Part shown: piece after piece, positions 1,466-32,020 of the stretch
Layout of the letters: every line of letters begins with the position of its first letter
How positions within the stretch are numbered: position 1 is the stretch's first letter
From: Saccoglossus kowalevskii
Lineage: Eukaryota; Hemichordata; Enteropneusta; Harrimaniidae
Reading direction: 5' to 3'
Length of the DNA: 32,020 nucleotides
Assembly: GCF_000003605.2 (NCBI RefSeq)
Contig: NW_003107593.1
Coordinates: 272,983 to 305,002, forward strand
Translations under genes and position numbers: made by a program
The notes under the pieces: model-generated
What the model was told of the DNA's origin: nothing
The model's input: only the letters and a program-made list of their open reading frames with translations
Database searches by the model: none

Positions 1466-2464
1466 TCACAGGCGATGTAACTGCCAACAGCTAAATAGAC
1501 GGACGCCGGCTTTATCAACAAGCGCAACAGCGCCATCGCTGGTCACGCTGACGCCCTGCGGCTTCGCAAATTTCTTGTCACCAATACAGCGCTTGATGCG
1601 GGTTTTGCACTCGCCCTCTACGTCATATACCCACAGGTAGTTAAGTTTTTCGTCTGCGACATACAAATTATTGCACTCATCTACCGCGATACCAGAAATG
1701 CCAGGAAATACGCGTTTGTCGCCAATGCAATATAAGAAGTGGCCTGACTGTGAAATTACTTGAACGCGACAGTTACGTGTATCAGCGACAAAGAGGTGAT
1801 CACGGCTGTCTATAGATAAACAGGTAGGGTAACGAAATGTTCCGGACATGGTGCCGAATTTGCCTATCACCTTGGTAACCGCATCGCCCTGTAAAACAAC
1901 AACACAACTGGATTTATGTGACACCACGTATAGCGCCCCCTCGCTGTCGAAGGCGAGACCCCATGGCCCGCGGATGGATTGATGGTGGTATCGCGCCACC
2001 AACGCCCCAGTTGCGGAAATTCTCAACACAGAGTCAGACGAATGGTCGGAAACTACGAGGTGGGTTTCGTTTTTCGTTAAAATTACCTCGCGTGGATCGA
2101 ACAACTGTTTTTTCGATATTTTGAAATTAGGACTATCGGGTGGATACTTCCAATTCGTCGACCCACCACGGGTGAATGCGCGTAGTTTCCTGTTGCCCGA
2201 GTCACACACGAATACGCTACCATCAGACGATACCACTGCAGCTCGCGGGCTTCGAAAGTCTGCTCTGACGGAATTACCTTCACCTATTCTGGCAATCAGT
2301 TCCGGTTCGAGTCTGGTAAACGTCGATGCGGATGAGATGGCAAGATCCGGTAAAGACGATGAGTTGTTGGAGTTTAAAGACAAAGTGTCGGCACTGAAGG
2401 ACAGTTCGTTGTTGCCAAACGCGCCACCAACGTGACCGTCGACGCGAGTTAAAGACGAACGCTT
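1466..2464 (-). CDS. Gene A, terminal coding segment: six-blade NHL beta-propeller
   Basis: This is one open frame ending in TGA at 1466-1468. Six repeats of NHL type can be read in order. Their cores include SPRAAVVSSDGSVFVCDSGN, FDPREVILTKNETHLVVSD, PWGLAFDSEGALYVVS, YPTCLSIDSRDHLFVADTRN, GISGIAVDECNNLYVADE and KPQGVSVTSDGAVALVD. The pattern of a proline turn, a hydrophobic strand, an acidic-Gly turn, then a V/Y-V-A/S-D strand is diagnostic. The last blade ends GVRLF, close to the stop, as expected for a closing strand. NHL propellers bind proteins or RNA in TRIM-NHL proteins; no RING or B-box precedes this one. The frame stays open upstream to about 2603, so the start at 2464 is only the proposed acceptor (GACAG at 2469-2465). 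That acceptor has a weak pyrimidine tract. Confidence 0.85.
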   Translation of the reverse strand, partial: KRSSLTRVDGHVGGAFGNNELSFSADTLSLNSNNSSSLPDLAISSASTFTRLEPELIARIGEGNSVRADFRSPRAAVVSSDGSVFVCDSGNRKLRAFTRGGSTNWKYPPDSPNFKISKKQLFDPREVILTKNETHLVVSDHSSDSVLRISATGALVARYHHQSIRGPWGLAFDSEGALYVVSHKSSCVVVLQGDAVTKVIGKFGTMSGTFRYPTCLSIDSRDHLFVADTRNCRVQVISQSGHFLYCIGDKRVFPGISGIAVDECNNLYVADEKLNYLWVYDVEGECKTRIKRCIGDKKFAKPQGVSVTSDGAVALVDKAGVRLFSCWQLHRL

Positions 2465-5400
2465 CTGTCCTTCCTCGAAACTGTACGCACTTTGAGCCCG
2501 GGGCAGGGATCGATTGTTTGACCACCACGAATGCCGCTTCCAGATCTTTTCTGCTTCGGAAAAACTTTCTCCCTTTCTTCGCCATGTGATACCGATCTAA
2601 TTAACACACTTCGCTGTTTTTCCGTCGTCTTTTTGTCAACGCAGGAATCTGAGAACTTGACGTTGAGCTGTGACCCGACAACAGTTCCGTTGTTCCGTGC
2701 TCGGCCATTATCTCCATGCGTTGGTTTTGTATCCGTATCGTAGTGCGTTTTTATTGACGGTTTGCTGTCTTGGACGGGCTCTTCCATCGCTAATAGTCCG
2801 AACAAAACTTGACTCAGTTCCGACGTTTCTAATGGAGTTGAACATTTTTCTGTTTTCGTCGAGGAACATTCGCTGTCAATTGATGTAATCACACACTGTT
2901 TTAATTGAGTATTTTCCAGTTGCATTACACCGTCAGTTTCAGTTACTCTCGCATCTTTTGTTGAATTGTCGTCCTGGTCGAACTTAAAAGTAACAGTTTT
3001 CTTGCAATCGCTGTCTGGCTTGTTTTTCAACGAAACAGCAAGATACGTTGGGCGGGATGTACCATCGGTTCTTTGATTATCGTGCGAGTTTTTCGACTAG
3101 AGATACGAAAAAAAGTATAAGAAAATGCGTGTTACATCGTGGCGCCTACAATATGTTGACTAGAGTCATTATAAATTTATCGCATTTCTGAGGTTAGAAG
3201 GATAAAGCAGACTGCGTGTATTGTATATCATATAATCCTACGTCATTGCAACATCGGTGACTTCCGGTGTCTGCGTACCGGATTAGGAATATGGCAACTG
3301 TTAGCCGTGATACAAAAGTAAAAAACGTTCCGTTCAATGGCAAACAATCATTGAGGACTATAGTTATACTATGTACTCACGTTTTGGAGAAATCTCGCGA
3401 TATTTATGACGTATGACGTCAATGTATGTCGTGAGCAATAATCTATCTAGATTTAATTATGCTAAACTGGTCGATATTATCTCATACATTGGACAATATA
3501 TGATTACGAGGACGTTACAAATAGTGATCTAAGGCCAAACAATAACTCATGATTGTGTTGAAATATCCATATACTATACACCCCTCATACCTATAACGAA
3601 ATAGCGGTATTGGCAGATACTGGCTGTAATTGCTTTATGGTCATTTCAAAAAATAAATACTCTTGTATTTTTCCAAATGTTTGTTTCTTATTTCTAAGTG
3701 TCATATCATTCAAAAAGTCAGAATTGCAAAAATGTATTTAGTGCTATACTAGTATCAAAAAATCCGCTAATAGAAATAAAACTCTTTTGACAGCATATTT
3801 TCATTAAGTAATAACTGTCATGCAGTATCACAGTTGTTGAGATTGTTTCGAGATGCGCCCTCTAGTGACAAAACATTTCTGTGACGCAATAACGGCGAAT
3901 GGCCGTCGAGATCTCGTTCATAGCGAGAGTGAGAGTCATGAGGTTTGTGTTTGCCACTGAAATAGTGTTCACAGTTCGTTCGGTCATCGCGTTCACCCTT
4001 ACCCTGCTCTATGTAACCATGGTAATTAGAGCAGTCGACGCGATGACGATAGAGAATAGAAAACGTAAGTCTCGTGACTCTCGCGCTCTGAACGAGATCT
4101 CGGTGGCCATTTCGCGTCTAAGATCTACTGATACACGGTGAATATTATTTAGATGTGTCGCTTTTCATTAACAATTACTGGTTTTACAATTTAATTTTTA
4201 GTTTTGTTATATTCTAAAATGACTACTGCACACAACCAATCAGATTTGTCTATTTGAACGACATTGATAACACCCATTAAGTTATGTTGTTGACGTCACG
4301 AAATCACGAAAAGGGCGCGACTTTGTATTGCATGTCCTATATGTGACCCGATGTACTGATTTGTTTTAATTTCTCCCTACTTTCTACATACTGTAAAACA
4401 TGTTGAAAAAGCGGCATGCAATTTTAGCGAATTGTAGTAAAATGACGTAATAACGAAATGTTGATTTAGCGAATCTCTCTTGTCATTGTTGATTTCTTTG
4501 TCTGGCGGCCATTTTGAATTGTCATAAAGTCATTAGTGACATCTTGAATTAGCGAATCAGTTCTCTCGCTAAATTCGCAAAAAAGACATGTTTTACAGTA
4601 TTATATACTACATTGTTTGCTTTCCACGTTTCTTTCAAGTCACGTTTTAACCTTTAAAGAAAGAGTCGACTGTTTTGCCTCCGTGTATAACATAAACACC
4701 CACTTTCCATATTTATTGAATTACTGTTAAAATGATAGCGATTTTCGTTGTTGGTTTCTTGTTGGCATTCGATAAGCGGTATTTTTTAAGATATACTGTG
4801 AAATACTTTAAAATAGCTTTATGCAATTTTAGCGAATTTGTCCCAATGCATGAATTAACAGAATCTTAGGTTAAAGCGGGATAGTCGTTACATGTGCATG
4901 CGTCAGATGATATTGTGTCATTGTTTACAAACAAGCGTCTACCCATGAGCCTTTGCGTTTTAGCGTGCGTTGTTATCGTCGTTTGGGACTCAATTCCCGC
5001 GCGTGCGCAGGGGACTACCCTCCCGCTATAACTAATAAGCCAAAGTCTCATTGCGAGAATGTGCTTTTATTTTAAATTAGCGACATCTTGAATTAGCAAA
5101 ATTACAGATTAGGTAAAATAGCATGTTAGCTAAAAACGGCATGTTTTACTATACAGTAACGAATCGCTTGAAGTACGACAAAGATTTAATAACCCGGTCT
5201 GAACTCACCAGTGCCGTGCGAAGACCCAACACTGCATTCTCTACATTCGATGCATATACATTATTGTACTCCTGGTCAACATGTCGATGCAAATCTGAAA
5301 GAAATCATAATTACCTTAACCTTTAGCAAATAGCGAATAATAAAGATTCGTATGATGACGTCGCCATCTAAGATAGAGACAACAACAGCTGAACATCGGA

Positions 5401-8400
5401 CTGGAAAGTCCGTGGAAATAGTCGATGAAATTGAATCAAGCATCGTTTATGATTAACAGTAAATGTCGATATATTGATACAGTCACGGGACGTGAGTTGC
5501 TCTCTTATAATTAAGCGTTCAGTAACCGGTAATAACTAATAATTTGTTAAATATTATACACAATTCACCTATGAATTTTGCATCATACTTCAAGTTCGTG
5601 ATTCGTTTAATATGCCCTACAGACTGACTGACATGCGATATAATGATAGACTAGCTGGTCCATCGATCGATCGATCTATTGGTTGATACATATATAGAAC
5701 ACAATCTGTTTTTAAATGGACGTACCATGAAAAGGCGGTCGTTTTTCCGGATCCACGTCCCAGCACTCCTGCATTATGCGCGAGAGTATTGTAGGACAGT
5801 CTTCGGGAATAGAACTTAGGTCTGGCCGGCTTCCTTGGCAAACGGCAGATATAAGGTGCCCATCATGATGGTTGTCAGTTGCTGTAATAACGAGATGTCA
5901 ATTCAACGTTCGTGCATAAAACAAGACAAGTGCCGATCGACTCCAAATCCACCGAAATGAACACCCGAAATACAACACCTACTCAACAACGCAGAGACTC
6001 TTTACTCGCTGATATATTCACTCACTGCTAATACTACAAGTATGATCATATTTCGTTCCCGAATATATAACTGTATGTACCATTCTAATATTGTGTGATG
6101 ACATCGTTTTCTAAGGGTTTCCATCGATTAGGAATTGCGATTAATTTGACTGATCTGTGAAAGCGTGAAAATTGCATACAAAAATATCGTATGTACAACA
6201 CGTATAAGCTGCCGGATCAGCTTTCGGAGTATTTCTTTAAATCAGTGACATTATGAACATTTCCTAATGTAATAGGTTTATTACATGAAATATATGACCA
6301 TGTCAATAAAAAATGCAAACTGCGTTTCTTGAATTATTTCCTCAGCATATTAGTATTATTCACACGTTCATAATAAACAATGTATTTTACACGCGTTGTA
6401 TACGTTGCTATGGGTTCAATATCGAACAGGACGCGGCGCGACGACCACCGCCCTTTAAACCAATATGCATTTATTTAGTTGTGAAATCCATTCCACTACG
6501 TTAAACTTCCTATATGGGAGCCAATAGGAACTGATTAACACTTCTTCTGAAAAAATGTTATTATATAGTAAAATAATATATTGATATAATCACCATGGCG
6601 ATTAATTCCAGAATTAGTTGCCACGTTCTCTAACTCGGGTGGCTGTGTCGTATTTCGAAGTATCGTTTCTCGTTGCCAAAAATAGAATAGTTGCAAGTTA
6701 CAAGGACGAACACAACATCATCCATCATCGTATCGATTGCATTGTTTTTTGTATTCTTTATAAGGTAGAATATTGACACTTTCTTCATCTTTACATTTTT
6801 GATATTTCATGTCACGAGGATGACGAAAATGGAATAAAAATATGGGGTCCCCGTACTTGTTTCGGGGAAATGGATGTACAAAATGGAGTGTAAATAGCAT
6901 GTTTTGTTATTTTTAGGGCATTTTACCATTGTTTTCTATGGAAAAGATTTATCTTAATATTTTGCCTTGTGACATATGGTGAAAAAAGATATATAGTGTC
7001 TTACAAAATATACAGTGACTCAAAGAAGTTCACATATTGTTGACTAATACTAAAATGAATAATTGTAGACAGAATTTGACACAAAATATTACTCCTGCTA
7101 TATGCGCTAAAAAAAACCGTCTGTGGCATTCTACCTTATTAAATGCATGTATATGTGAGGCGACAGTTGGTGTTATAAGTTTTACGCCACAATTATAATT
7201 TCTAACATGGCACGAAGTAAGCCGCTCTAATTTGAAAATAATAATAAAACTAAGCCATAAGTTTGGGAGTGGAATTTTACCGAAAAAACAACCGGTTTCA
7301 AAATGTATGACTGGTGGATTTAGAGTGTGAGTGCTCTCGTGGGTCAATATTGCCAAGATTGCCAAGATTCGGCTTCCCTCCATAAATCGCTACACTCAAG
7401 GATCTCCCACAATGACAAATACAATGACTGGTTTCGGTATACGAGACTTGTCGTTGACAATAAACACGACGTGTGGAAACAGGTGAAACGAACACTTATT
7501 TGAGATTCGCAATGCATTCCCAGTTGATATTTGTATTTTCCAGAGTCAAACGCACCGCGAAATTGACTCGCAATCGCGAAGTACGATTAGAAAATGCTTA
7601 ATGCATACTTACATGGGTAGCTCTCTAATCCAGTCACCAGCTCCCAGAGCACGATACCAAAACTAATATTAGAAAAAAACAAGTAATGTCAACGTGGCAT
7701 TCACACCATCCACATTATAGAGGGTTGGTATATTAATAACGATAATCTCCGGGGGCTCGGGGGGTCTTGGAGTTCTTGTAATCTGTTTACCATCGATGAT
7801 TGTTTTATGGGATCGTTGACTATATTTGATACGAGAAAATCGTTATTTAAACTGAAAACAAGAATTAATCAATTTGCCATTAATATGCGATTTGCCGTGC
7901 TACGGTGAAAACCTGTGACGACCACTGAAGCCAAACATATGTCATTTGGGTATTTGGGTTACGGTCACCTTTTGTTCAATTTCATTTACCATTGTGTATT
8001 GCAGATCCCAGTTGTACTAGTAGTTAGATTAGCGTATTCACCGACATCAGTTAATATGTTTAAACGAATCTTTTAGATGGAACTGCATCAAAAGTTTGAG
8101 AAACGGCTTTGTCCTAGCTAATTCAATGCGTGCGCAAGCCTTCGATACAAGCAAACATTTAATGTAGTCTTAAATACAAGTCAATGTTTTAAACAAAATA
8201 CTCTTTTTAAGATTCGGAGAAGCGATTTGTTAGACTGATCGCAATATTTAATAAAACATAATCATTTCCGATGATAATGCCACAACCCTTCCATTCTCCC
8301 ATTAACATCTTGTATTGTGTGTGGAGAAAGTATTTGGAAGAGTCACATTAAGACCCTATACAGCCCAAATTGAACGGTTTTGGTCACGGTAATACGATTA

Positions 8401-11400
8401 TCTTAAGTTAACGGGTGAGCACGCGGCGAAGCGTGCGATCATTTGACATTCAGTTTGACCCCTAAACTTACCTGTAAATATCATATACATTATCGAGTGG
8501 ACGGGTTGGATCGATCAAGAATTCAGGCGGGATTATACTCATATTTCTGGAAGAACGTCTTTTCTTGTTATTATTATCATTACTATAGCAACTGGAAAAA
8601 AATGCTTCTACAGTCGTGATACTGAAGTCACTTATCTGAAAATGTAAACAAAGCAATATAATAATTCATGACGTCAGCTTATTTATTATTCATAATATTT
8701 GCATATTTAAAAAGCAATATGGCTGACGAATCAATTTAATTTCAAAGTGGTTACACATGCATGAACCTACATGTATTTCGTGAATTCAAATAAATGCTCA
8801 CTCCGAAATGTTCGGTACGAGTCAAATGTGCTGTTCACCCAAAATTTCAACGTATTTTAACGCCGACTGAGTGAAAGTGTGTGTGAGAGAGAGAGAGCAG
8901 AGGTGGAAGAAAATAATGGGAAGATGGCGTATTGACCTATGATTTAGCCGTAATTGCCATTAATATCTTCATCCAAGCGTCAAATCAAATTACGTTAATT
9001 GATATGTAGATCAGCACTAGCATACAGCGGTGGCCTTGTCTACATCAATTATATCACTTGCCAGGGAACAAGTTTAACAAGAAATACTTAAACAACTTAA
9101 AAGACATTGGACTACCATCTACAGTCTGTACTAAAAATAACCTATTTCTGTGTGGCGTCTTCGAGAACATGTTCTGAAATGCTCACAGTTTAAAAGGGAG
9201 CGAAAAATAAATATGAGCCTCTACAGGAAATTGGACAATTGATCACATGACTACAAATTACGATGGAGTTGCGTTTTACATATCATTGACAGCTGAACGC
9301 ACGACAGTCAACGAGTAAAAAACGGCATTATCTAACAATATCAGGGGACTTTTCACGCGAACTTTCCTTTATATAACATGTGCAACAAGGACAAGCCATT
9401 TTGAACAGACCTGATATTATTAAAGGACGGTGGTCGTCGCGCCGTGTCTGTTCGATATGGGACTAGAAATTCGAACACGCGCTGTGTGACGACCACCGCC
9501 CTTTAATAGTTTTACTTGGTGAAGGCAGCCATATTGTCGCGTGACCTGGAAGTTGGGAACATACATGGCGATGACTCACTTAACAAAATGACCAAAGAAT
9601 TTCAGAAATACTGTACGTACAAAGAAAAGCCATACACAAACTTGTTTCCAAGGTAACAGAATATTTCACAAAATATCCAATTATATCAATCAACAAATAT
9701 GTTTCATCAAATCAGATAAAAAAACGCGCACACAACACATTGTTCATTATTGTCTCTCTTAATGCAGTACTAACATTGCTCAACACTGATTCAAAATTTG
9801 TAAAAACAACGTGTTTTACGTAACATGGGACCCATAACATACAGGGCGCTGTGTGACGACAGCGGCTTTAACTCCCTAGCTTCGCGTTTATTCGACTTTA
9901 TTTTGCGTAGCACATTTAAACTGACACTTCAGATAAATGTACGTACCAGTAACTGAAGACGCGGGCGCATTTCAATATTGCCTCATGTGGCTTTGTGTGC
10001 CACGAAAAAAAACCTTGTTGTATAATTTGATCACATGATGGTGTGCAGCTAAATATACTTTGAAAACAAATATCGAATAACTCGTATAGAACTACGTACA
10101 AACATGACCGTGAGCGGAACATTGGGGGTGTGCTACATCGAAAAGTAGGTTGAAAAAGAGCGCTTACACATGCTTTAAAGCGGGGTAGTCGTCACATGCT
10201 GATGCATCAGATGGCCATAGCGTGTCATTGTTTACAAACAAGCGTCTACCCATTAGCCTTTGCGTTTTTAGCGTGTGTTGTTATCGTCGCTTGGGACTCA
10301 ATTCCCGCGCATGCGCAGGCGACGATCCTCCCGCTTTAATATGCAAATAACATTCACAAGCCATCACGAAATGATAATTACAAATTAATATACCTTGACA
10401 TGAAAATCATCATCAATTAAAATGTTGTCCCGTTTCAGATTGCCGTGCACCACGCAGTTTTCATGGAGATACGTCATTGCTGCCAGCATCTCGTCTACCA
10501 TTCGATACTTGAGGGAAACAGGTACACGAGTTGACGATGTATTCTGCAGCTGTCTGAGCGATCCATGCTTCATATAGTCTAGAACGATCGAATAACTGTC
10601 GTGTTGCCTAATGAACCCATGTATCGGTACTAAATTCGGACCCGTTGCTATGGCAATTAGCGACTTAATTTGGGCTTCAATTCGGTCCAATTCTCTGCAA
10701 TTTAGAGCACATACAGAAAATATAATTGATAAAACGTCAGTGATTGGGGCACGTACGTGTTAACTTCTACATGTAAGGGAATTATAAATTAGCACAAAAG
10801 TGGTTATTATATTTGAAAATCAGTCAGTGGTATTTCTCTGTGCTGATGAAACGAATGTGCCGATTTTCTCGTTACTAGAATGCAGTTCACTGCAATATGA
10901 CGTCATGTACATACTGTCTAGTTTTATATCATTATTGCAACGGCGTAAACTAGCTTCTTTATAACAAACAATGTAGTTGTTTTGGACAAGCATTATTTTT
11001 TCTTAGCACCATAGTGTCTGACAAATCACAGGATTGGTTCAAATTCCTTTCAGCTGCGTTTCACGCACGGGTGGAATACAATGGAAAGAAAATGTTTACA
11101 TACACACTTCAGTTTTGCGCGAGGATGTTTCATACACTACCGTGGGGGGGGGGGATTAAAAAAATGGCGCAGTATCACGCTACAGCCGTGTTCTTTGATG
11201 CGATTGGTCAGCCCGTCGACACGTTGGGTAACGCAGATAAACGATCTTTGCGGCACGAAATCGTGCAAAACCTGTCAAAAGATCAGACGACATCAATGAC
11301 GAAGTAATCTCACACCCTTCCCCTAAAATGAATTGTTTCATTTGGTTTGCAGCAAGTGTTCACGACAAACCACGAACGTGGTGAATGGTGTTAGGCAATA

Positions 11401-14400
11401 CTCCAATAACAAACCGTTGTTGGCCTCAACGAACTACTTTAAACTAAATGCAGCAAAATAACATTACGTTGTGTTAAAAAGTATCCATCCGCTGATTGAA
11501 ACACACCGTACACTGTTGCTTTGATGGTCAGTTGATATGTGCATAGAATATTTGATACGCTTGTTTATTGGAGGAAAGTGTTTCAAAGACTAAATTGAGA
11601 GTATTGGCTTTCCGGCAAAAACTACAGCACAACTGAGTATCGCGTTACCAGAGACTGTGACGTTGGAGTGAGTGGGCGTTTCACACACTGAAGTGAAACT
11701 CTTTGCCGAGACTTCTAGTGTGCACTGATGATATCGAGACGTTATTGTTCACTAGTAGCAAAATTTGTTATGCTTGTAGAAACCTCCCAGTTCGGTAGCA
11801 GAGCGCCAGGCGCTGAGATACCAAGCACTGTAACAGCATCGTGCGCCCGTCAACATTAGAATTCACACAGTTAGCGCGTGCAATAAATTGCCACGTTATT
11901 CTGTTCTTGATATCTTTGAAGCATTTTTGCTTTGTCTTAAAAAAAGGTTGGTTTACCTTAGCTGAAATGTTGACTGGGTTGTCAAACTCAGCAAGCAAAT
12001 TATGCGTCCCTTTTTAATATTAGAAATTACAGCTTAGAATGAAAATAGTCTGCCACATACCATAATAATTCCCTTCATAGTCGCGCCCTCTCGCGACAAA
12101 GCGCTCCCAAGACGTTAATGAGCGAAATCAAGGTCGATATCTTCTTGATCTGTAGCCGTCTATTAATAATGATTATGTTTTCGTGTGTTTTTTTCTATAT
12201 TCTAAATGATAAAAGACTAGAAAACTAAACGTAGTTGTCGATTCGAACGACATTACTCGCTTATATGGGATACGTCCTTTTGACGACACGGATGTGCTCT
12301 GTCACTAAATAACACGGGTTATAGATTGGTATATTTTCAATTGCTTTGATTGATCTATGAATGAATGTTAGATTCACAATAAGACGGCATGGGACGACTG
12401 AAGATATTAATACTACATGCTTACTTTTATTCGTTTCGATTTATAACTCTTTCTCATTGAAAATTTCCGTGGGAGTCGCACATAATGGACTCCCGATTAA
12501 ATAAATGTGCACGTGTAACGTTTTCATTTTTTTTCGAGTTTTAATCAGAATTACCTTTTGCTCGTGTCTTTTTTTTGATTAAGTTACAATGCGTGTTACA
12601 GCCACGTACACTACAGGTCGACTAGTATTATATAACTATATGCACTCTAAAATAAAAAAAAACGGACTCTGAATCTACGATTCGTCGATTTTAAAAAAAA
12701 CGATGTAGCGTAAATCGTCCCTGTTATGTAATTTTCTCGTTTAGCTTCTGTTTTTGTAGGCGTATCCATAGCAACGCTGACGATTCCCCGTGCACGGAAA
12801 TGATTTGATTCATTTGGAAGAATGCACTGAATGTTATTATAGGTATTTTTGTTTCGCTAATATTATTATTATCGGAGTATACTGCCTGTATAGCGATGAC
12901 AATACACGACGCGACCTTTCTGTCTCCGTACCTCTGTTTCATTACAGACAAAAATATTATATATATTGTAATGGAATTTCAGAAATAGTTAGAAAAGGGG
13001 GGAGGTAACTTTAAATATGTGAGATTTAACTGATATTCATAGGTTTTGAGCGAAAAATGCATTTATATTCAGATTTTAAAATCTACGCCACAACAAAGAG
13101 CATTGTTCCATTTCCGAGATGTTTCTACTTTTCCCATTGATTTTGTTAGTGTATGTAAGAAATAATTTAAATTCATGTTTCCGACCCCCGGCGCTGAATG
13201 TTATTTATGGGCTGATTACAATTTTAAAGGTCTTGGTCTGTTAACATGGGATTATTACAAGTACAAGTAAAATAATGTGAAAAGAAACGGAAATAAAGCC
13301 ATCATGAGTTGTCGCATGAATGATTCTGCCTCGTTGATTATTCATGACAGATTACTAGTACATTCGCCAGTGTAATTCACTGAATACATGTTCTCAAACT
13401 GGCACACCTCGATCATTGAGGTACTTATCAGATCCCAAGAATGTGTGTCACGCAAATCAATGATCTAGCTTTTTCATTCACACCTAAATAAGGAATAGTA
13501 CAATTTACGATTTTCAGACTCTTTGGTTGCTTGGTAACTATGCGCGAGACAGTTTCGATCTCTTGGGCAAAATATAAAGTACAGGCATTGTGTTGTGGCG
13601 TCATTTGTTTACATTTTTGCCAACCAACATAAAATTATTGATAATGTCGCTCACTGATCATTAATTAACCAATGACCTGCCGTGACAAGGTTTCCCGTAA
13701 GTTGTCCTGTTAACAGGGACACATAGATGTATATTTAATATTCCAGCTCAGCGAACAACACCGTTGTGTTTTCGAGAGCGAATGACAGTTTTTGCTAACC
13801 AGCCACTGCGCACGTGTACGCGCCAACCAGTCACCGCGCACGTGTGTACGCGCCAACCAGTCACCGCGCACGTGTACGCGCCAACCAGTCACCGCGCACG
13901 TGTACGCGCCAACCAGTCACTGCGCACGTGTACGCGCCAACCACACACTCCAAACAGTGGCGGCGCTCTCACTTCCGTTCCTCTGGTTTCGGTTTTCACC
14001 ACTGTCACACCGTAATTTGCATATGTTCAGTAACCTGCATAAAAAATGTGGTGAATCACCACATTTTTTTTCAAACAAAGATTATATGCGTATAACCTTT
14101 ATGTCTTTTTACAAAATAAATACAGTGATGTTCATAAATAAGAAATCATCCAACAGAAAGTGTCCTAAGGTGTATACATGTTACTTTTGTACGAGACCTG
14201 TTTTTCAAAGTGGAAGTACATTCATGTTTACATGTGTGATGATTGGCTAAAGGAAACTTTCTGCTTTCGCATGTCAAAGTCTGTTTTACTTTATCAAAAC
14301 TACTTACACTAGTCTTGCGAAATCGCAAGATATAAATGAAGGGGAAAATGCGTGTGATAGCGAATATTCGAAGTTCATATACAAGAGCGGAATAACAATA

Positions 14401-17400
14401 TTTCAAAATTACTGCACAACACGAAGAGAATTCGAACGTATTTGATTAGGTTCTCTAGAACATATGCAAATTACGGTGTGGCAGTGGTGAAAACCCGAAC
14501 GAGAGGAACGGAAGTGAGGGCGCCGCCAGTGTTTGCCGCCAGTGTTTGCCAACCAGTCACTGCACAGGCGTACGCACCAATTAGTCACTGCGCACGCGTA
14601 CGCGCGAATAACGTAAAGTGCGATGGCCTATAATTACGGTTTTATTGGATAGGCGTATACTTATTTCATACATATCTTTTATTATTTGTAAACATATGTT
14701 TTTGTATAACGATCTACGGTTGGGTATGTCATTTCCATTTTTCAACATTTTATCAGCCTTAACAACAAAATACGCACATACGAATGCGCGTAAGCAGATT
14801 GCATCCGTTGACTGCACGCTGTAGCAATCTTCCACACGTTGCAAATAGATCATACGCGATAGATATTTATCTTCTCGTCACGTGTAACCAAAATCGTACG
14901 TAAAATTGCGCGCACGTGGAAGCTATCTGCTTTAAGGTAGAGATGCAGTTTACCTGACAGGTATTTTAATTAGTTAATTAGGAAACCAAGATGATCTCCC
15001 TTGTCCACAAAACTATATATTTTCAGAAAGCTTATTGTATGAATTTTAAAATTTTGTTAGTATTTTTTTTATGGATACTGTAGTTTGAAATATGCACAAA
15101 AATGTGCTTTTTTGGTCAAAAGTGATTTTAAAAAATAGCTTCTAAACCATGCTTCTGTTTCCTGTCAAAATTGGTTTACGGGCACATCTGTTTACTATGA
15201 AGAAAGTACCGTCTTGAAAACTGTCTACCAGTTGTCAATTTTGCAGGGCAGCAGCTCAAATTTCACTACTTCAAGTTTATGCATAAATTAACACCCATGC
15301 TAGTTGTCTGTACGATTGTTGTAACACTGTTCAACCAAAAACAATGCTCCGACGGCGTTTTAAAGATAAACACATTGTCAATCATTTGTGAAATTTTCAA
15401 AACAAAAGGTCAAAGCGTCTGGGAAATATTTTTTTTTAAAGTTCTGGGATGTGCTCTAAAAAGAAGCTGAGATAATTGCTAATTTGCATAACAATTCAGT
15501 CAGTGAGAAGTTTGCTAATGCTCATATTTAAAATGGCTGTAACAGTTCCAAATTTAAATGTATTATCGTTTTGTAAAAAGTTAAATATAGTGCATAATAT
15601 GGAGGTCCCGTCATTTCTTTTTTTCACCATTATTTTTGTACAACCTTGCTAAATCTTGCTAAGCATTCAAAAGAGAGAATGTTTGCACCTGTTATCTATA
15701 TTTTAAAATCGTCTTTTGAGTATGTTTCACTATTCACAATTCTACAAAATTTTAACAGTCTATAGCCAAGACTGTTTGGATGATAAAAAGCAAAAAAACA
15801 AAAATTTCACTCCAAAGTGCCCAAGAACCTGCATCTCCACCTTAAGCAAACAACCGCGAATGAATTTTGCCTTTAGTATCCTTCGTGTGTGCCAGGCTTT
15901 AGTGTGTCGTTCAACTTTATCTAAAATTAAATGGTTCGTCTCCGTCACGTCTTTTGGAGACGATGGAAAATTAATAACGTGACAACAAACATGTTTAATT
16001 CTATTTGACAGATTGATAGTCACTGAGCAAAAAGGGGGAGATCAATTTTAAGAAATTACCCCCAAAGCGCGCTTTATATATATATGGGCGATGGTCGATC
16101 AATATCTTTAAAAACTGCGAGTTAATTACTTAGACGTCGTGGTGCAAGAAAACTGCCTGAGAGCCCGCCACTAAGCCTCGTAATTAAATTCGTTGTTTGG
16201 CGTCCTCTGTGTGTAAATTTGGCTGATTTTTGCGAAGAAAGAAACACAGATTTTCCCATTAAAATAACAAAAGGTTTTTATTGAACATGTCTTTTTTCAG
16301 CAATTGTTGAAAAAAAAATGTAATGAATGTATGTATATGCATACAAACATACACTTGCAAAAGAGCCTTTTCAAGACAATATGAGACGATGATAGGCGCA
16401 GTATTCTCGGCAGGTAAGACTTTGGGGGGGGGGCATTTCTCATTCTAAGCTTACTTTCGCAATAAAAAGGCAATAAAAATATTAATATGTGCGAATTGCG
16501 GAGAATGTGTGATTAAATATGCAACTGAAACGAACCGCAACATTCAGACGCCCTGAACATGATTGATTATTAAATGATTAAGTACCTTTCAATGTCTGAT
16601 TTTCCGCTCACTGCGAGATCTCGCGTACTGCGTGAAAGGCGATGACCGAACGTTCTCAGAAAAATCCGAACGATGTCGAAATGCCGACTATAGTGAATGT
16701 GATACCCTCAATTCATCAAAATTTATCATCATCGAATGTGTATAGCACATAGCATTATTAAACGTGGAAATACCCTCCCCCCCCCCAAATACTTTCGCGT
16801 CTGTCGTATCTCACGCAAAGTTTCAGTTTGACGCCACTACGACGCAATGACCTTTGCTCATCCTGTTTGTACGTTCGACATCACGCATAAATCATGATTT
16901 TGCACATTGAAATCTTTGTTTTCACAATAAGTCCAAGACCACAACAAATGAATGTATTTACCACGAACAACAATAATTAAATGGAAAAAAAATGCTTTTT
17001 AATTATACATGTGAATTTGGTTTTATATAGTCTCTAATAGCAATATTGACGCTTTGTTCAAATATGTGTTTATTTATCGCATATACTCGCCTACAATTAA
17101 AATCTTTGAGGGGACGCAAACCACAAAAAAAAAATATTTATCACGGCCTAATTATCAATATTCCAGCCTTCCACCTATAATAATATGCTTTTTATTATGA
17201 TATGTGTGAACTTATTTTTATTAATCTGTTAATAATGTATGTGATGTCTTGGGTATGGCAACCAGATACACACATACACCTTAGTTCACGAGTTTAGCCA
17301 GGGAAGGGGGTTTTAGAATGACATTTAATAAATTCTTTCATTTGCGGTTACATAATAATGTCGATGATTCAGTGCATGTTAAATGTTTGTGGAAGTGTAT

Positions 17401-18257
17401 CGAGTGCACCATCACATCTGATGAAGCGTGGCGAACCACACAGAGGACGAAATTGCGTGTAGTTTGCTTCATACGCGCTGCGAGTATGATGACGCTGGTA
17501 ATACGCGCGTCAATATCAATATCATTATAAGCAATCAACCACAGTTGCGCATACACAATAAACAATGCGGCAACCTTGGCGCAGGTGCAAAGCAGGCGTT
17601 CCTACAGTCATTAGTTGTATTTGCACGTCGTATTTTGGTTCATGATTTGGAAAATTTATTATTGTGCATAATTATGTTTTGAACGATTCTTTGGATTCAC
17701 CTTTTTAATTTTGGGTAAGCATCTGATAATGTCGAACAATAGACGAGTTTCGAGTTATGGCGCCATCAGTTTTTGTGAGCCTATTTCTAGGTCGCGCAAT
17801 TTAACTGTTCCCGGCGTTATAATACGCTATCGAGCGTTTACGTAGCGAAATCACCACCACCCCTACGTAGACAAAATTGGAACGTTTTTTACTCTATAAC
17901 GTACAAGTTTCTACGGTAACGACGGAACTCAAAACTTAATCATGATTTTATGCGGTTATGAACTCGTACACCTTACAATAAATTTACATATCAACACGCC
18001 ATATTGATAACAAATATTAAACTGTATTGAAAACTTCCACATTGTACGTAAACACTAATAGACGACAAATAAACAACTTACTCGGTGCGTAATTTCTCGG
18101 CTGTGTATAACGTTTTCATGGCAACGAGTCCAAGAGTCTCATGTCTCCCAAGAAATAACTCGCCGTATGTTCCACTCGCGATGGGGCTAACTCGAGTTAC
18201 GGCATCAGCCTCGATTACAATGTCGCCGTGTTTCATGGCTGAACGAAGGGTGGCCAT
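1466..18257 (-). CDS. Gene A: RIPK-like pseudokinase fused to NHL propeller (spliced, whole gene)
   Basis: This gene was reconstructed from seven minus-strand coding segments: 18257-18082, 10694-10394, 8635-8472, 7662-7613, 5881-5726, 5294-5209 and 3096-1466. The first six total 933 nt, exactly 311 codons, and every junction has GT-AG ends and matching phase. Residues 18-311 form a kinase fold of RIPK/TKL type: glycine loop ASGTYG (27-32), VAMK with K48, a probable helix-C E65, catalytic loop HGNLKRDN (142-149), DFS (162-164), PPE (195-197), YSFGIVLWEL (213-222) and CWDVDPEKRP (270-279). A linker rich in Ser, Thr, Asp and Lys follows, then six NHL blades. The protein would be about 810 residues, without signal peptide or membrane span, so probably cytosolic. 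HRD is HGN, so phosphotransfer is doubtful. One frame change at 2603-2449 remains unresolved. The exon chain is read directly; the family assignment rests on motifs; the function is inferred. Confidence 0.85.
2465..2592 (-). other. Gene A: candidate 128-nt intron, or site of a one-base frameshift
   Basis: The linker frame entering from 3096 stops at 2449, while the NHL frame is open from about 2603 to 1466. They overlap for about 150 bases and differ by one missing base (or two extra). A donor after TCG at 2593 (GTATCA) and an acceptor at 2466-2465 would join them in phase, removing 128 nt. The acceptor has few pyrimidines, so the alternative is a lost base in one of the A or T runs of this stretch, with no intron. 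Confidence 0.4.
2593..3096 (-). CDS. Gene A, linker exon between pseudokinase and NHL domain
   Basis: The acceptor TTTTCGTATCTCTAG ends at 3097, and the exon opens in phase 0 with Ser-Lys-Asn, matching the phase-0 donor at the end of the 5294-5209 exon. It encodes 168 residues up to the proposed donor at 2592, or 216 if read to the stop at 2449. Composition is polar, with many Ser, Thr, Asp, Lys and Gln residues, no membrane segment and no recognised domain. It therefore looks like a disordered tether. RHIM-like or Death sequences, found C-terminal to the kinase in some RIPKs, were not seen. The coding assignment rests on the long open frame and the clean acceptor. Confidence 0.7.
3855..3868 (-). 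promoter_or_regulatory. CTCF-like core motif
   Basis: Read on the minus strand this is TCACTAGAGGGCGC, which fits 13 of 14 positions of the CTCF core consensus CCASYAGRKGGCRS. A 14-base match can arise by chance, and whether CTCF binds here is unknown. It sits about 40 bases left of the palindrome at 3896. Confidence 0.3.
3896..4114. repeat. Near-palindromic element, ~220 bp
   Basis: The left arm, including GAGATCTCGTTCATAGCGAG (from about 3906), is matched in reverse complement by the right arm ending at 4114, including GAGATCTCGTTCAGAGCG read on the minus strand. Pairing continues inward through TCATCGCG / CGCGATGA and TGCTCT / AGAGCA to a centre near the CCATGG at about 4017. It looks like a foldback MITE. 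No clear target duplication was identified. Confidence 0.65.
4389..4600. mobile_element. 212-bp MITE with TACTGTAAAACATG inverted ends
   Basis: The left end is TACTGTAAAACATG at 4389-4402 and the right end CATGTTTTACAGTA at 4587-4600, a perfect 14-bp inverted repeat. If the outer TA is the target duplication, the ends fit a Tc1/mariner-type non-autonomous element. The interior carries several TAGCGAAT motifs and no open frame of note. A related element lies at 4793-5158. Confidence 0.7.
4793..5158. mobile_element. Diverged TA-type MITE, interrupted by a nested TTAA element
   Basis: The left end TACTGTGAAATACTTT and the right end CATGTTTTACTATACAGTA resemble the ends of the 4389-4600 element, and both share the internal GCAATTTTAGCGAATT (here at 4823). 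The copy is longer because a 160-bp TTAA element sits inside it at 4871-5031. Removing that insert leaves about 205 bp, close to the 212 bp of its relative. Confidence 0.6.
4871..5031 (+). mobile_element. TTAA-flanked ~160-bp MITE, copy 1
   Basis: It begins TTAAAGCGGGATAGTCGTTA and ends with the inverted CTACCCTCCCGCTATAA; the right target site is mutated. It shares the internal CATTGTTTACAAACAAGCG and GGGACTCAATTCCCGCGC with copies at 10175 and 22825. TTAA target sites are typical of piggyBac-type transposition, but no transposase is present. The minus-strand open frame here is part of the element. Confidence 0.75.
5209..5294 (-). CDS. Gene A, exon 6: end of kinase domain and C-terminal extension
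   Basis: The acceptor TGATTTCTTTCAG ends at 5295 and the donor CTG|GTGAGT starts at 5208. It encodes the second and third bases of codon 283 (Asp), then residues 284-311, starting LHRHVDQEYNNVY and ending VLGLRTAL. This follows the CW...RP helix of subdomain XI. A Tyr-containing helical tail at this place also occurs in RIPK-family kinases. Both ends match the phases of the neighbouring exons. Confidence 0.8.
5295..5725 (-). other. Gene A intron, 431 nt
   Basis: Bounded by GTACGT and TTTCAG. It contains a short GATC-rich patch (ATCGATCGATCGAT) near 5662 and nothing else recognised. Confidence 0.7.
5726..5881 (-). CDS. Gene A, exon 5: kinase subdomains X-XI
   Basis: The acceptor TTATTACAG ends at 5882 and the donor GTACGT starts at 5725. 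It completes codon 231 and encodes residues 232-282 plus the first base of 283. The text HLISAVCQGSRPDLSSIPED, then CPTILSRIMQECWDVDPEKR and PPF, is a textbook kinase end: R-P, a turn, then C-W-x-x-x-P-x-x-R-P-x-F. This is the strongest single kinase exon. Phases agree with both neighbours. Confidence 0.93.
5882..7612 (-). other. Gene A intron, 1.7 kb, no other gene seen
   Basis: Contains a dispersed-repeat relative at 6376-6458 and otherwise AT-rich unique sequence. Open frames of 60-117 codons at 6718-7495 were checked; none shows a recognisable domain or adds a phase-compatible kinase segment. Confidence 0.6.
6376..6458 (+). repeat. Dispersed repeat, half of TTAA palindrome family
   Basis: The part from 6376 (AACAATGTATTTTACACG, then CGTTGTATACG) recurs at about 31292-31321 with one change. 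The part ending CGACGACCACCGCCCTTTAA is the same as the right end of the 87-bp element at 9420-9506. The copy thus links both families, but it lacks the matching left inverted end. Confidence 0.6.
7613..7662 (-). CDS. Gene A, exon 4: kinase subdomain IX
   Basis: This 50-nt micro-exon has acceptor TCTAATATTAG (ending 7663) and donor GTAAGT (from 7612). Joined to exon 3 it reads DIYSFGIVLWELVTGLESYP, the conserved DxYSFG...W helix F segment, with Ser214 split across the junction. Its length and phases fit exactly. It would be missed without knowledge of the family, as it is only 16 full codons long. Confidence 0.9.
7663..8471 (-). other. Gene A intron, 809 nt
   Basis: Bounded by GTAAGT and ATTAG. 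It is AT-rich, and no repeat or coding segment was recognised. Confidence 0.7.
8472..8635 (-). CDS. Gene A, exon 3: activation segment
   Basis: The acceptor TTTACATTTTCAG ends at 8636 and the donor CAG|GTAAGT starts at 8471. It encodes residues 160-213. It starts ISDFSITTVEAFF, where DFS stands at the DFG position, keeping the Asp. The loop carries a low-complexity stretch YSNDNNNKKRRSS (176-188), then SIIPPEFL where PPE stands at the APE position. It ends RPLDNVYDIY, continuing into SFG in the next exon. Phase 0 in, phase 2 out, agreeing with both neighbours. Confidence 0.9.
9420..9506. mobile_element. 87-bp TTAA-flanked palindromic MITE
   Basis: The left end TTAAAGGACGGTGGTCGTC and the right end (minus strand) TTAAAGGGCGGTGGTCGTC differ at one of 19 bases. 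TTAA occurs at both ends, as a target duplication would. The centre holds TTCGATATGGGACTAG and a second inverted pair. It is too short to encode anything. Diverged halves occur at 776, 6376, 9811 and 31292. Confidence 0.75.
9811..9875 (+). repeat. Diverged relative of the 9420-9506 / 6376 repeat
   Basis: The order is GTGTTTTACGTAACATGGGA, then GGGCGCTGTGTGACGACAGC, then GGCTTTAA. It matches the right part of the 87-bp element (GCTGTGTGACGAC) and the TTTTAC...ATGGG region of 6380-6415. Boundaries are approximate. Confidence 0.45.
10175..10339 (+). mobile_element. TTAA-flanked ~160-bp MITE, copy 2
   Basis: TTAA at 10175-10178 and 10336-10339 flank inverted ends starting AGCGGGG (left) and AGCGGGA (right, minus strand). 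The interior matches copy 1 closely, in the same orientation. It lies only 55 bases from the donor of gene A exon 2. Confidence 0.85.
10394..10694 (-). CDS. Gene A, exon 2: helix C to catalytic loop
   Basis: The acceptor AAATTGCAG ends at 10695 and the donor AAG|GTATAT starts at 10393. The first base completes Glu59, then residues 60-159 follow. Helix C (ELDRIEAQIKSL), PNLVPIHGF, hinge IVLDYMKHGSL, helix E MVDEMLAAMTYLH and the catalytic loop VVHGNLKRDNILIDDDFHVK are all in place. In the loop HRD is replaced by HGN, removing the catalytic Asp, while K146 and N149 remain. HGN also occurs in other known pseudokinase groups, such as receptor guanylyl cyclases, but the rest of the domain and the C-terminal extension point to RIPK/TKL. 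Confidence 0.93.
12083..12096 (-). promoter_or_regulatory. Weak CTCF-like motif
   Basis: The minus-strand reading TCGCGAGAGGGCGC keeps the AGAGGGCGC half of the core but differs at the left. It is listed only because better matches occur at 3855 and 22655. Confidence 0.12.
13793..13945 (+). repeat. 28-bp minisatellite with a CACGTG in each unit
   Basis: About five tandem units of the type CCAACCAGTCACCGCGCACG followed by TGTACGCG. Spacing is 28 bp except one 30-bp unit with an extra GT. CACGTG falls at 13811, 13839, 13869, 13897 and 13925. Two more diverged units lie at 14548-14605, beyond an inserted element. Open frames on both strands here are products of the repeat, not genes. Confidence 0.9.
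13951..14535. mobile_element. 585-bp non-autonomous element with ~78-bp inverted ends
   Basis: The left arm 13951-14027 starts CAAACAGTGGCGGCGCTCTC. The right arm 14457-14535, read on the minus strand, starts CAAACACTGGCGGCGCCCTC. Both continue ACTTCCGTTCCTCT and run on to CCGTAATTTGCATATGTTC with few mismatches. The interior has no recognised protein. Minisatellite units in the same orientation lie on both sides, so the element probably landed inside the array. A target duplication was not resolved. Confidence 0.8.
14041..14069. repeat. Perfect 14-bp hairpin inside the element
   Basis: AAAAAATGTGGTGA and TCACCACATTTTTT pair perfectly around one central base. It lies just inside the left inverted arm of the 13951-14535 element. 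Confidence 0.8.
14548..14605 (+). repeat. Two outlying units of the minisatellite
   Basis: CCAACCAGTCACTGCACAGG, then CGTACGCA, followed by CCAATTAGTCACTGCGCACG, then CGTACGCG. These are diverged units of the array at 13793, same strand and period, without CACGTG. Confidence 0.7.
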
Positions 18258-22668: not shown

Positions 22669-22824
22669 CGGAAATAATTTTGTTTTGTTGTTGTTGTTGT
22701 CATTTTGAGAAGCAAAACAGCTCGTTGTGAAGGTATCCTACAAACTTCACCAACATATTTAGGCAAATATAACAGGAAGCTGTTGCCCTTTTTTATTTTT
22801 ATTATGCAACATAAAACAACATTA

Positions 22825-22985
22825 TTAAAGCGGGAGGGTCGTTACCTGCGCACGCGCGGGAATTGAGTCCCAAGCGACGATAACAACACACGCTAAGAAC
22901 GCAAAAAAGCGGGTAGACGCTTGTTTGTAAACAATGACGCTATGGCCATCTGACGCATGCGCAGGTGACGACTCCCCCGCTTTAA
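22825..22985 (-). mobile_element. TTAA-flanked ~160-bp MITE, copy 3 (inverted)
   Basis: TTAA at 22825-22828 and 22982-22985 flank AGCGGGAGGGTCGTTACCTG and the inverted GGTGACGACTCCCCCGCT. The interior is the reverse complement of copies 1 and 2. The 60-codon minus-strand frame here belongs to the element. Confidence 0.85.
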
Positions 22986-24200: not shown

Positions 24201-25553
24201 CTGAAATAAACAAACACAGCCGTTAGTCACTTTTTGAAGCTCCATTTCATGTAAATAAAAGAATAAACAATACAACAGTTTTGCAGATACACATTCTGAC
24301 GAGCTTGTTTCGTTACGCCAAGGTCACGCTATTGCCACATCTATTTTCATTTTTTTTTAGTTGAAGAGACAATTTTAATAGTTTGCATTTTTTTCGTTTT
24401 CTATGGAGTGCATAAAATGATATCCGTAGTATGAAATACAAAAACAAAACAAAAAAAAACAATGCATTAAGCGCGTGTTCTTTTAAATTCATATACGTTA
24501 TATTAATTCTCTGAGCATGCGCAATTACGTTGTTTCTTATCAAATAAATACGACATTGTGTACAGCATCTTTAGTTTACGTTAAATAAATGCTCAGTAAA
24601 TATAACAGCATGCACTATCGAGCAAAATAATCCATAAAATGCCTGACGTATTCCTACCTCAGTATTGAAAATCCACGGTTGTCTGTGCTTCACGCGCGCC
24701 ACTTCTTTCTGTCGCAGTGCCACAGTAGCTCTCAGCTCATTGCCTTCGGCTGTTGTTCTTTCAACATTAAATCTATAAGTTGAAAAACGTCCAATTGTTC
24801 CACCTTGGTCCCACAGATCCTTACCATAAAATATCTGCACAAAAACACAACGACATTGCCATGATACTGAAAACTTGCTTTCAAACCTGAATAAGAGGTC
24901 ACACATTAGAAATCATAGGGGTGGGGAGAGCATGACCTGTGTATTTTTTTCGCGGTGTTTTCTCTGAACATTTGTTTTGTGCCAACATTCTACAGCGTAG
25001 CGAGAAAAAACAATGTCAGTGAACTAATGCGTTTACATTTCGAACACGTACACATTGTACTCTATGCCACATACTCAGGGTGTATTCATACCGAATTTCG
25101 CTTGTGAAATATACGGCCACAAGATCTTACCACCTACCCGCCAATTTCAGGACGAGGCCATGGGGTTCTGTCATTGTAGAATACATAGATACCTGCTTCA
25201 CAAGCTGTTCCTCTGGTTTCCAGTTATTAGATGTCCCATCAATTTTACATTGTAGATCACCGTCGGTTCTCGATATAACAGTGCTACTAGAAGCACACAG
25301 CTTTCCTCCGAACTTACATCGTTCAATCCATTCCACTCGCTTCAATTCAAGTACATACAAATATAGAATAATAAGTTGTTGCACATTAACAGTAGTGTAG
25401 TTGATAGAGTCCAACCAATAAAAGTTTAGCCCGCGGGGCACTTGAGGGACAGTGGTATGCTGTAACACAAAACGCATTTCAATATGCGTGGTTTTCAAAC
25501 AGATAGCCGCGTCCATATGTACACACGGTGTTCAAGGAAACAAAACAAAACAA

Positions 25554-25584
<31 letters not shown>

Positions 25585-31378: not shown

Positions 31379-31544
31379 GAGGTAAGTGGATATTAAAACA
31401 TGGAATGGTTATATCACTCATTTTTTACCAGTACATAAGGTATATTAGGCTTTTTTGAGGATTGCAATATACATCTTTGTTTCTATTGATTTAATATTTG
31501 TACATGTCCCCATTCGAATGTCACATTTACTTCCGCAATGTGCT

Positions 31545-32020
31545 ACACATTGTATACCACACATTGCTACACGTTGTATGCCACACGGTGCTACACATTG
31601 TATACCACACGGTGCTACACATTGTATACCACACGGTGCTACACATTGTATACCACACGGTGCTACACATTGTTTACCGCACGGTGCTATACATTGTATA
31701 CCACACGGTGCTACACATTGTATACCAAATGGTGCTACACATTGTATACCACACATTGCTACACATTGTATACCACACGGTGCTACACATTGTATACCAC
31801 ACGGTGCTACACATTGTTTACCGCACGGTGCTATACATTGTATACCACACGGTGCTACACATTGTATACCAAATGGTGCTACACATTGTATACCACACAT
31901 TGCTACACATTGTATACCACACGGTGCTACACATTGTATACCACACGGTGCTACACATTGTTTACCGCACGGTGCTACACATTGTATACCACACATTGCT
32001 ACACATTGTATACCACACGG
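31545..32020 (-). repeat. 24-bp satellite with 144-bp higher-order period, open at right edge
   Basis: About 20 tandem units of the kind CTACACATTGTATACCACAC plus GGTG. The variant TTTACCGCAC recurs at 31673, 31817 and 31961, exactly 144 bp apart, so blocks of six units were copied together. One minus-strand frame reads as a Cys-rich octapeptide (CGIQCVAP), is open through the window edge, and ends after a unique tail at 31445. All three plus-strand frames of the consensus are also open, so openness alone does not show a gene. It is treated as satellite DNA; a repetitive Cys-rich protein remains possible. Confidence 0.85.

Follow-up and report, generated by a model that had tools for sequence, protein, structure and literature searches.

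Organization of the locus

The window analysed here is a stretch of 32,020 nucleotides (C207:272983-305002) in an animal assembly of 572 Mb and 4830 contigs. A DNA search of the assembly returned the window alone, and neither a second copy nor a second haplotype was present. All parts of the gene described below lie on the minus strand. In the order of transcription, they are six exons for a kinase domain (18257-5209), an exon in the same phase encoding a polar linker (3096-2450), and an open frame encoding an NHL propeller (2596-1466). The last two overlap and are read in different frames.

The kinase exons encode a RIPK1-type pseudokinase

Kinase exon 1 (18082..18257) holds the ATG start, the glycine loop and the β3 lysine, Lys48. 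Exon 2 (10394..10694) encodes αC and the catalytic loop VHGNLKRDN, in which Asn144 replaces the catalytic Asp, and exon 3 (8472..8635) carries DFS in place of DFG, together with PPE. Exon 4 (7613..7662) contains SFGIVLWELVTG, exon 5 (5726..5881) reads RPD...CWDVDPEKRPPF, and exon 6 (5209..5294) ends in phase 0 at a GTGAGT donor at 5208. All internal borders were GT-AG, and the joined exons gave 933 nt, or 311 codons, free of stops. The sequence-only reading had described exactly such a six-exon, 311-codon, phase-continuous kinase, and this part of it holds.

Profile searches located both of the domains that had been proposed, with Pfam PK_Tyr_Ser-Thr matching the kinase chain (E 1.3e-42) and Pfam NHL matching the propeller frame (E 3.1e-21). 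Against the PDB, the kinase chain matched RIPK1 best, at 143 bits (E 9.4e-41), compared with 110 bits for RIPK4 (E 1.3e-30), 90 for B-raf, 89 for RIPK3 and 88 for RIPK2; closeness to RIPK1 is expressed here by these bit scores and not by a tree. The RIPK-like label given earlier agrees with this ranking.

The catalytic loop begins at residue 141 and, with HGN where HRD is expected, has no catalytic Asp. The gene retains the glycine loop (SGTYGEL), the β3 lysine (Lys48, in VAMK) and the Asp of the DFG motif, although the motif itself reads DFS. At the position of the αC Glu the alignments differ, blastp pairing a Glu and phmmer a Gln. By its matches, the kinase half is a real RIPK1-type domain. 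It is also, by its motifs, a pseudokinase, because the catalytic Asp is lost and DFG has become DFS; the same call had been made before, and both motifs can be read directly.

The propeller frame

The open NHL frame (1466..2596, stop included) comprises 376 codons and is open throughout. It begins with the remainder of the linker, which extends to ~2310 with weak coding signal, and continues into the six-bladed NHL (~2310-1469). Residues 95-371 of the frame aligned with residues 4-277 of the 281-residue TRIM3 NHL structure, and six blades were counted by eye. TRIM71 and TRIM3 were the best PDB matches, with Brat and PknD also matched. Pfam returned propeller-type matches alone for this frame, and no Death, CARD or ankyrin domain. 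A single-sequence AlphaFold2 model of the frame had a mean pLDDT of 45.4, which is too poor to carry any weight. On the profile and structure matches, the NHL half is real. The propeller is basic (pI 9.1), and the frame has no Met upstream of it.

The linker exon and the break in the reading frame

The linker exon (2450..3096) begins at a good acceptor and, joined to the GTGAGT donor at 5208, extends the kinase in phase 0. The 5208 donor and the 3096 acceptor scored 11.2, the highest of six pairs, compared with 4.5-9.9 for the five kinase introns; the donor and acceptor weight tables behind these scores follow the general animal consensus and are not fitted to the species. In kinase phase the exon runs for 215 codons to a stop at 2451-2449. 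The encoded segment is polar, with 73% of 200 residues drawn from STNQDEKRPG, and is probably disordered. Pfam found nothing above its cut-off in the linker frame, including Death, CARD and ankyrin, and there was no RING or B-box match in the frames 3096-2452 and 2596-1469. The RHIM core [IV]Q[IVLC][GS] was absent from the kinase, linker and NHL frames. No membrane segment was predicted in the linker frame by hydropathy (top 19-residue Kyte-Doolittle mean 0.74), and no paralogue of the linker was found in the genome at E up to 1.

The kinase-phase frame ends at the stop at 2449. The NHL lies in a different frame, which opens at 2596, and the two overlap by 148 nt; an uninterrupted frame from kinase to NHL is absent from the assembled sequence. 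In the sequence-only reading, the in-phase exon continued by way of a polar linker to the six NHL blades. The phase, the acceptor and the NHL are borne out, but the kinase frame stops at 2449.

Coding signal was scored with a codon model for which 15 long open frames from the same genome served as the training set. Scores were positive for the linker frame over ~3080-2480 and for the NHL frame from ~2510 on, placing the change of frame between linker and NHL at 2478..2510. The best direct switch scored 79.05 bits at 2497, and all positions in 2478-2510 were within 2 bits of it. The signal was patchy. Over 2870-2750 another frame outscored the linker frame, and over 2390-2300 the NHL frame scored about zero and the opposite strand 8.8-9.6. 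The stretch 2448-2312 added just 1.4 bits ahead of the propeller.

The start of the linker exon was more distinctive. Its first Met lies at 2925, after 57 codons that scored 14.8 bits, compared with a maximum of 11.5 among 1622 stop-free windows, mutually overlapping, from noncoding DNA of the window. With the nearest NHL paralogue (L002) left out of the training set, the 57 codons scored 14.7 against a maximum of 11.6. By synonymous codon choice alone the linker did not stand out (462 of the 1622 noncoding windows reached its score), and neither the kinase exons nor the NHL did so clearly, so this test does not discriminate. The coding evidence is therefore one of codon and amino-acid composition. 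Since the 57 codons before the Met are coding-like, the linker exon probably depends on a coding exon further upstream that ends in phase 0, and by the same scores it is probably not a first exon itself. Between 5208 and 3097 there was no candidate running from an ATG to a phase-0 donor with a donor score of at least 1. Four control stretches of equal size held 0, 2, 2 and 1 ATG-to-donor candidates, and because the controls hold so few the missing candidate is only mildly telling.

Programmed -1 ribosomal frameshifting was considered and set aside: the exon has no in-frame X XXY YYZ heptamer within 3096-2450.

Related kinase and NHL genes in the same genome

Among the matches listed, the two counts of kinase matches came to at least 34 and at least 48, and other NHL matches to at least 47. 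RIPK1-like loci were found on C2340, C205, C1340 (two loci) and C4796. The donor at the 3′ border of exon 2 falls at a codon position common to all five RIPK1-like paralogues compared, and the acceptor of exon 3 at a position common to all three compared. The catalytic Asp was present in each of the eight other kinase loci in which the loop was read, RIPK1-like or not (C3649, C2340, C3165, C2345, C1340 twice, C205 and C4796). Loss of the Asp thus appears special to the window gene only among the loci seen, which are few of the at least 34 and at least 48 matches.

RIPK1-like loci on two contigs (L028:5641-6012 and L024/L025) have candidate tails of their own. On C1340, ankyrin repeats lie downstream of the RIPK1-like kinase exons, and on C205 a frame containing a RING lies about 2 kb downstream; each is a candidate for the same gene as its kinase. 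These layouts would fit the idea of RIPK1-like kinases with differing tails in this lineage.

The nearest NHL paralogue among the 47 others listed is at C764:123357 (L002), with 33-34% identity. The 783 residues scanned of its protein, which has a long and polar N-terminal region, contained neither a RING nor a B-box. A tblastn search of the 30 kb upstream, in which N fills the first 3.3 kb of the retrieved stretch (L009), detected no kinase, and C764 does not occur among the 34 kinase matches listed. A further NHL gene (L003) has a RING domain, recognized by eye, and like L002 is an NHL gene without a kinase. Among the matches listed, no other contig had kinase and NHL matches closer together than 100 kb; on C3165 and C3574, which have both kinds, the distance exceeds 100 kb.

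One gene or two

We favour a single gene of about 850 codons, to which we give a probability of about 0.6. It would consist of the RIPK1-type pseudokinase of 311 residues, a linker of about 260 residues and the six-bladed NHL, with the frame broken once. In its favour, coding-like sequence precedes the first Met of the linker, the splice pair between kinase and linker scores highest of the six, the NHL has no start of its own, and no alternative first exon was found. Against it stand the frame break, the patchy coding signal, the linker without a paralogue, and the nearest NHL paralogue, for which no kinase was detected in the 30 kb upstream. Since the kinase frame stops at 2449 and no acceptable intron joins the two frames, the exon chain is good to about 2500 and then requires a change of frame. 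The break is most likely a small assembly error, and otherwise a real frameshift allele. The kinase-NHL fusion proposed from the sequence alone is thus upheld in part, by the coding signal before the Met, its passage from one frame to the other, and the missing NHL start; the frame break had been overlooked.

The locus could instead hold two neighbouring genes, a pseudokinase gene ending just past exon 6 and, apart from it, an NHL gene with a true first exon that has escaped detection. If the 5208 donor is ignored, exon 6 stays open for 19 more codons before a stop, and an AATAAA follows at 5071; the same strand of the window has 46 such motifs in all. NHL genes without a kinase occur in this genome, as L002 and L003 illustrate, and the want of a second close kinase-NHL pair among the matches listed also suits separate genes. 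A missed exon may lie at 4039-3821, where a segment of 73 codons scored 11.1 bits and six controls scored slightly less (7.9-10.2). However, the linker exon is coding-like before its Met and in phase with the kinase, the interval 5208-3097 has no ATG with a usable phase-0 donor that could serve as a first exon, and the donor that reading through exon 6 would ignore is a strong GTGAGT. We therefore consider two genes unlikely. Much the same standing is given to a young pseudogene or natural frameshift, in which the protein would end at 2449 as a pseudokinase with a 215-residue tail and the NHL would go untranslated. The assembled sequence does change frame there, with neither an acceptable intron nor a slippery heptamer to restore it, yet the kinase exons, the splice sites and the 376-codon NHL frame are all open, and a lone break is the pattern expected of one assembly error. 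This outcome, too, is improbable.

An additional intron inside the linker exon would account for the change of frame without invoking an error, and would leave kinase and NHL in one gene. Within the exon, GT-AG and GC-AG pairs of at least 20 nt were scored. By coding signal alone such an intron is tolerated: a gap of 20-22 nt scored 78.4 bits, compared with 79.05 for none, and a gap of 149-151 nt scored 76.0, at a cost of 3 bits. The weakly coding stretch 2448-2312 is followed by a fair acceptor (1.3) at 2313. The splice sites, however, are poor. The top GT-AG pair (584 nt) scored 1.4, against 4.5-11.2 for the six accepted pairs, and the best GT donor for the 2313 acceptor gave a joint score of 58.6. 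The best joint score overall was 70.0, against 79.05 for the direct switch, and it belonged to an intron of 26 nt with a splice sum of -2.8. An intron of 26 nt is below the size workable in animal splicing. The direct switch carries no penalty in this comparison, which therefore favours it over any intron. Even so, we regard an extra intron as very unlikely, and the single gene broken once by a probable assembly error remains the preferred reading.

Comparison with known proteins

The window gene shares the N-terminal kinase of RIPK1, its best PDB match, with 32% identity over 262 residues. It differs from RIPK1 in having no catalytic Asp and, in the frames scanned, no RHIM core or Death domain, with an NHL in their place. 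Proteins of the RIPK4/ANKK1 type likewise place a C-terminal domain of recognition repeats after a RIPK kinase; there the repeats are ankyrin and here they are NHL, and the window gene encodes a pseudokinase. The six-bladed NHL is shared with TRIM-NHL proteins (TRIM2/3/71, Brat), but the window gene has no RING or B-box Pfam match upstream of it.

The layout of kinase and NHL is shared with mycobacterial PknD, whose sensor (1rwi) matched the NHL at E 9.2e-16. PknD is an active membrane receptor kinase of bacteria, with its NHL outside the cell. The window gene, in contrast, has a RIPK-type pseudokinase and no hydropathy-predicted membrane segment between kinase and NHL. HGN replaces HRD in the JAK JH2 domain and in the plant HGN receptor pseudokinases, as it does in the window gene, but their kinase families and partner domains are unlike those found here.

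A survey covering the RIPKs of ten deuterostomes lists Death for RIPK1 (with RHIM in vertebrates), CARD for RIPK2, ankyrin for RIPK4 and LRR-ROC-COR for RIPK6/7, and reports no RHIM for the RIPK1 of amphioxus and starfish either; the term NHL does not occur in the main text of that survey (PMC11507063). MLKL is the subject of a further paper (PMC11476962). Structures of NHL domains include the PknD sensor domain and Brat (PMC6107167), and malin and TRIM32 have been modelled on PknD (PMC3160408). The titles and abstract openings searched, from openly available papers, contained no animal RIPK-NHL or other kinase-NHL protein. The earlier statement that no animal counterpart has been described is provisionally in keeping with this search. 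If RNA confirms the gene, the pseudokinase with NHL would be a new combination of known parts, again provisionally.

Possible function

A kinase domain without the catalytic Asp would be expected to phosphorylate poorly. It may still bind nucleotide, because Lys48 and the Asp of DFG are retained. The pseudokinase could dimerize with, or dock on, those RIPK1-like kinases of this genome in which the Asp is retained, and the basic propeller could bind an RNA or protein client and deliver it to a RIPK1-like complex. A non-catalytic scaffold with the propeller as its client-binding module is thus a reasonable inference by analogy. This proposal draws on the scaffold role of RIPK1 and on client binding by TRIM-NHL proteins; in vertebrates, RIPK1 is both kinase and scaffold.

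Taken as a whole, the picture would be of an intact gene that joins a RIPK1-derived pseudokinase to an NHL, in an intracellular, non-catalytic version of the PknD layout. The NHL would have replaced a Death or ankyrin tail, and the protein would serve immune or death signalling together with RIPK1-like paralogues that are active. We see the chances of this fuller account as evenly balanced.

The role of a RIPK is set by the domain that follows its kinase (Death, CARD, RHIM or ankyrin). If the gene is as proposed, an NHL tail would bring RIPK-type signalling together with a module whose other known setting is in TRIM proteins that bind RNA or substrates. A dead kinase ahead of it would separate out the scaffold role of RIPK1, and the gene would point to the swapping of tails as a way in which RIPKs diversified in invertebrate deuterostomes.

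Other features of the window and assembly

Directly upstream on the minus strand, 27813-23859 encodes ZU5 (Pfam E 8e-5) and Death (Pfam E 9e-5) domains, with a stop after the Death. The nearest PDB match of the ZU5 part was UNC5B, weakly (E 0.57), and the Death part had no meaningful match. If ZU5 and Death belong to one gene, it would be a second gene of death-signalling type beside the pseudokinase.

A dispersed element of ~72-83 nt, in copies 91-94% alike, occurs in two introns of the pseudokinase gene (4958-5031 and 10266-10339) and, inverted, upstream of it (22823-22905). A 28-bp tandem repeat in five copies lies at 13797-13943, with a related copy 640 nt away at 14548-14608, and inverted arms (13938-14028 and 14458-14548) lie by this repeat. 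At 25538-25661, 25 copies of AAACA produce long chance open frames. A 24-bp tandem array of 20 copies at 31540-32020 has several open frames, with CGIQCVAP repeats, and reaches the end of the window.

In the mitochondrial contig (17,037 bp), cox1 (L047:3352-4938) lies on the strand opposite to frames resembling cox2, nad1 and nad2, all named by eye. In cox1, AGR codons are almost absent and AAA is read as Lys.
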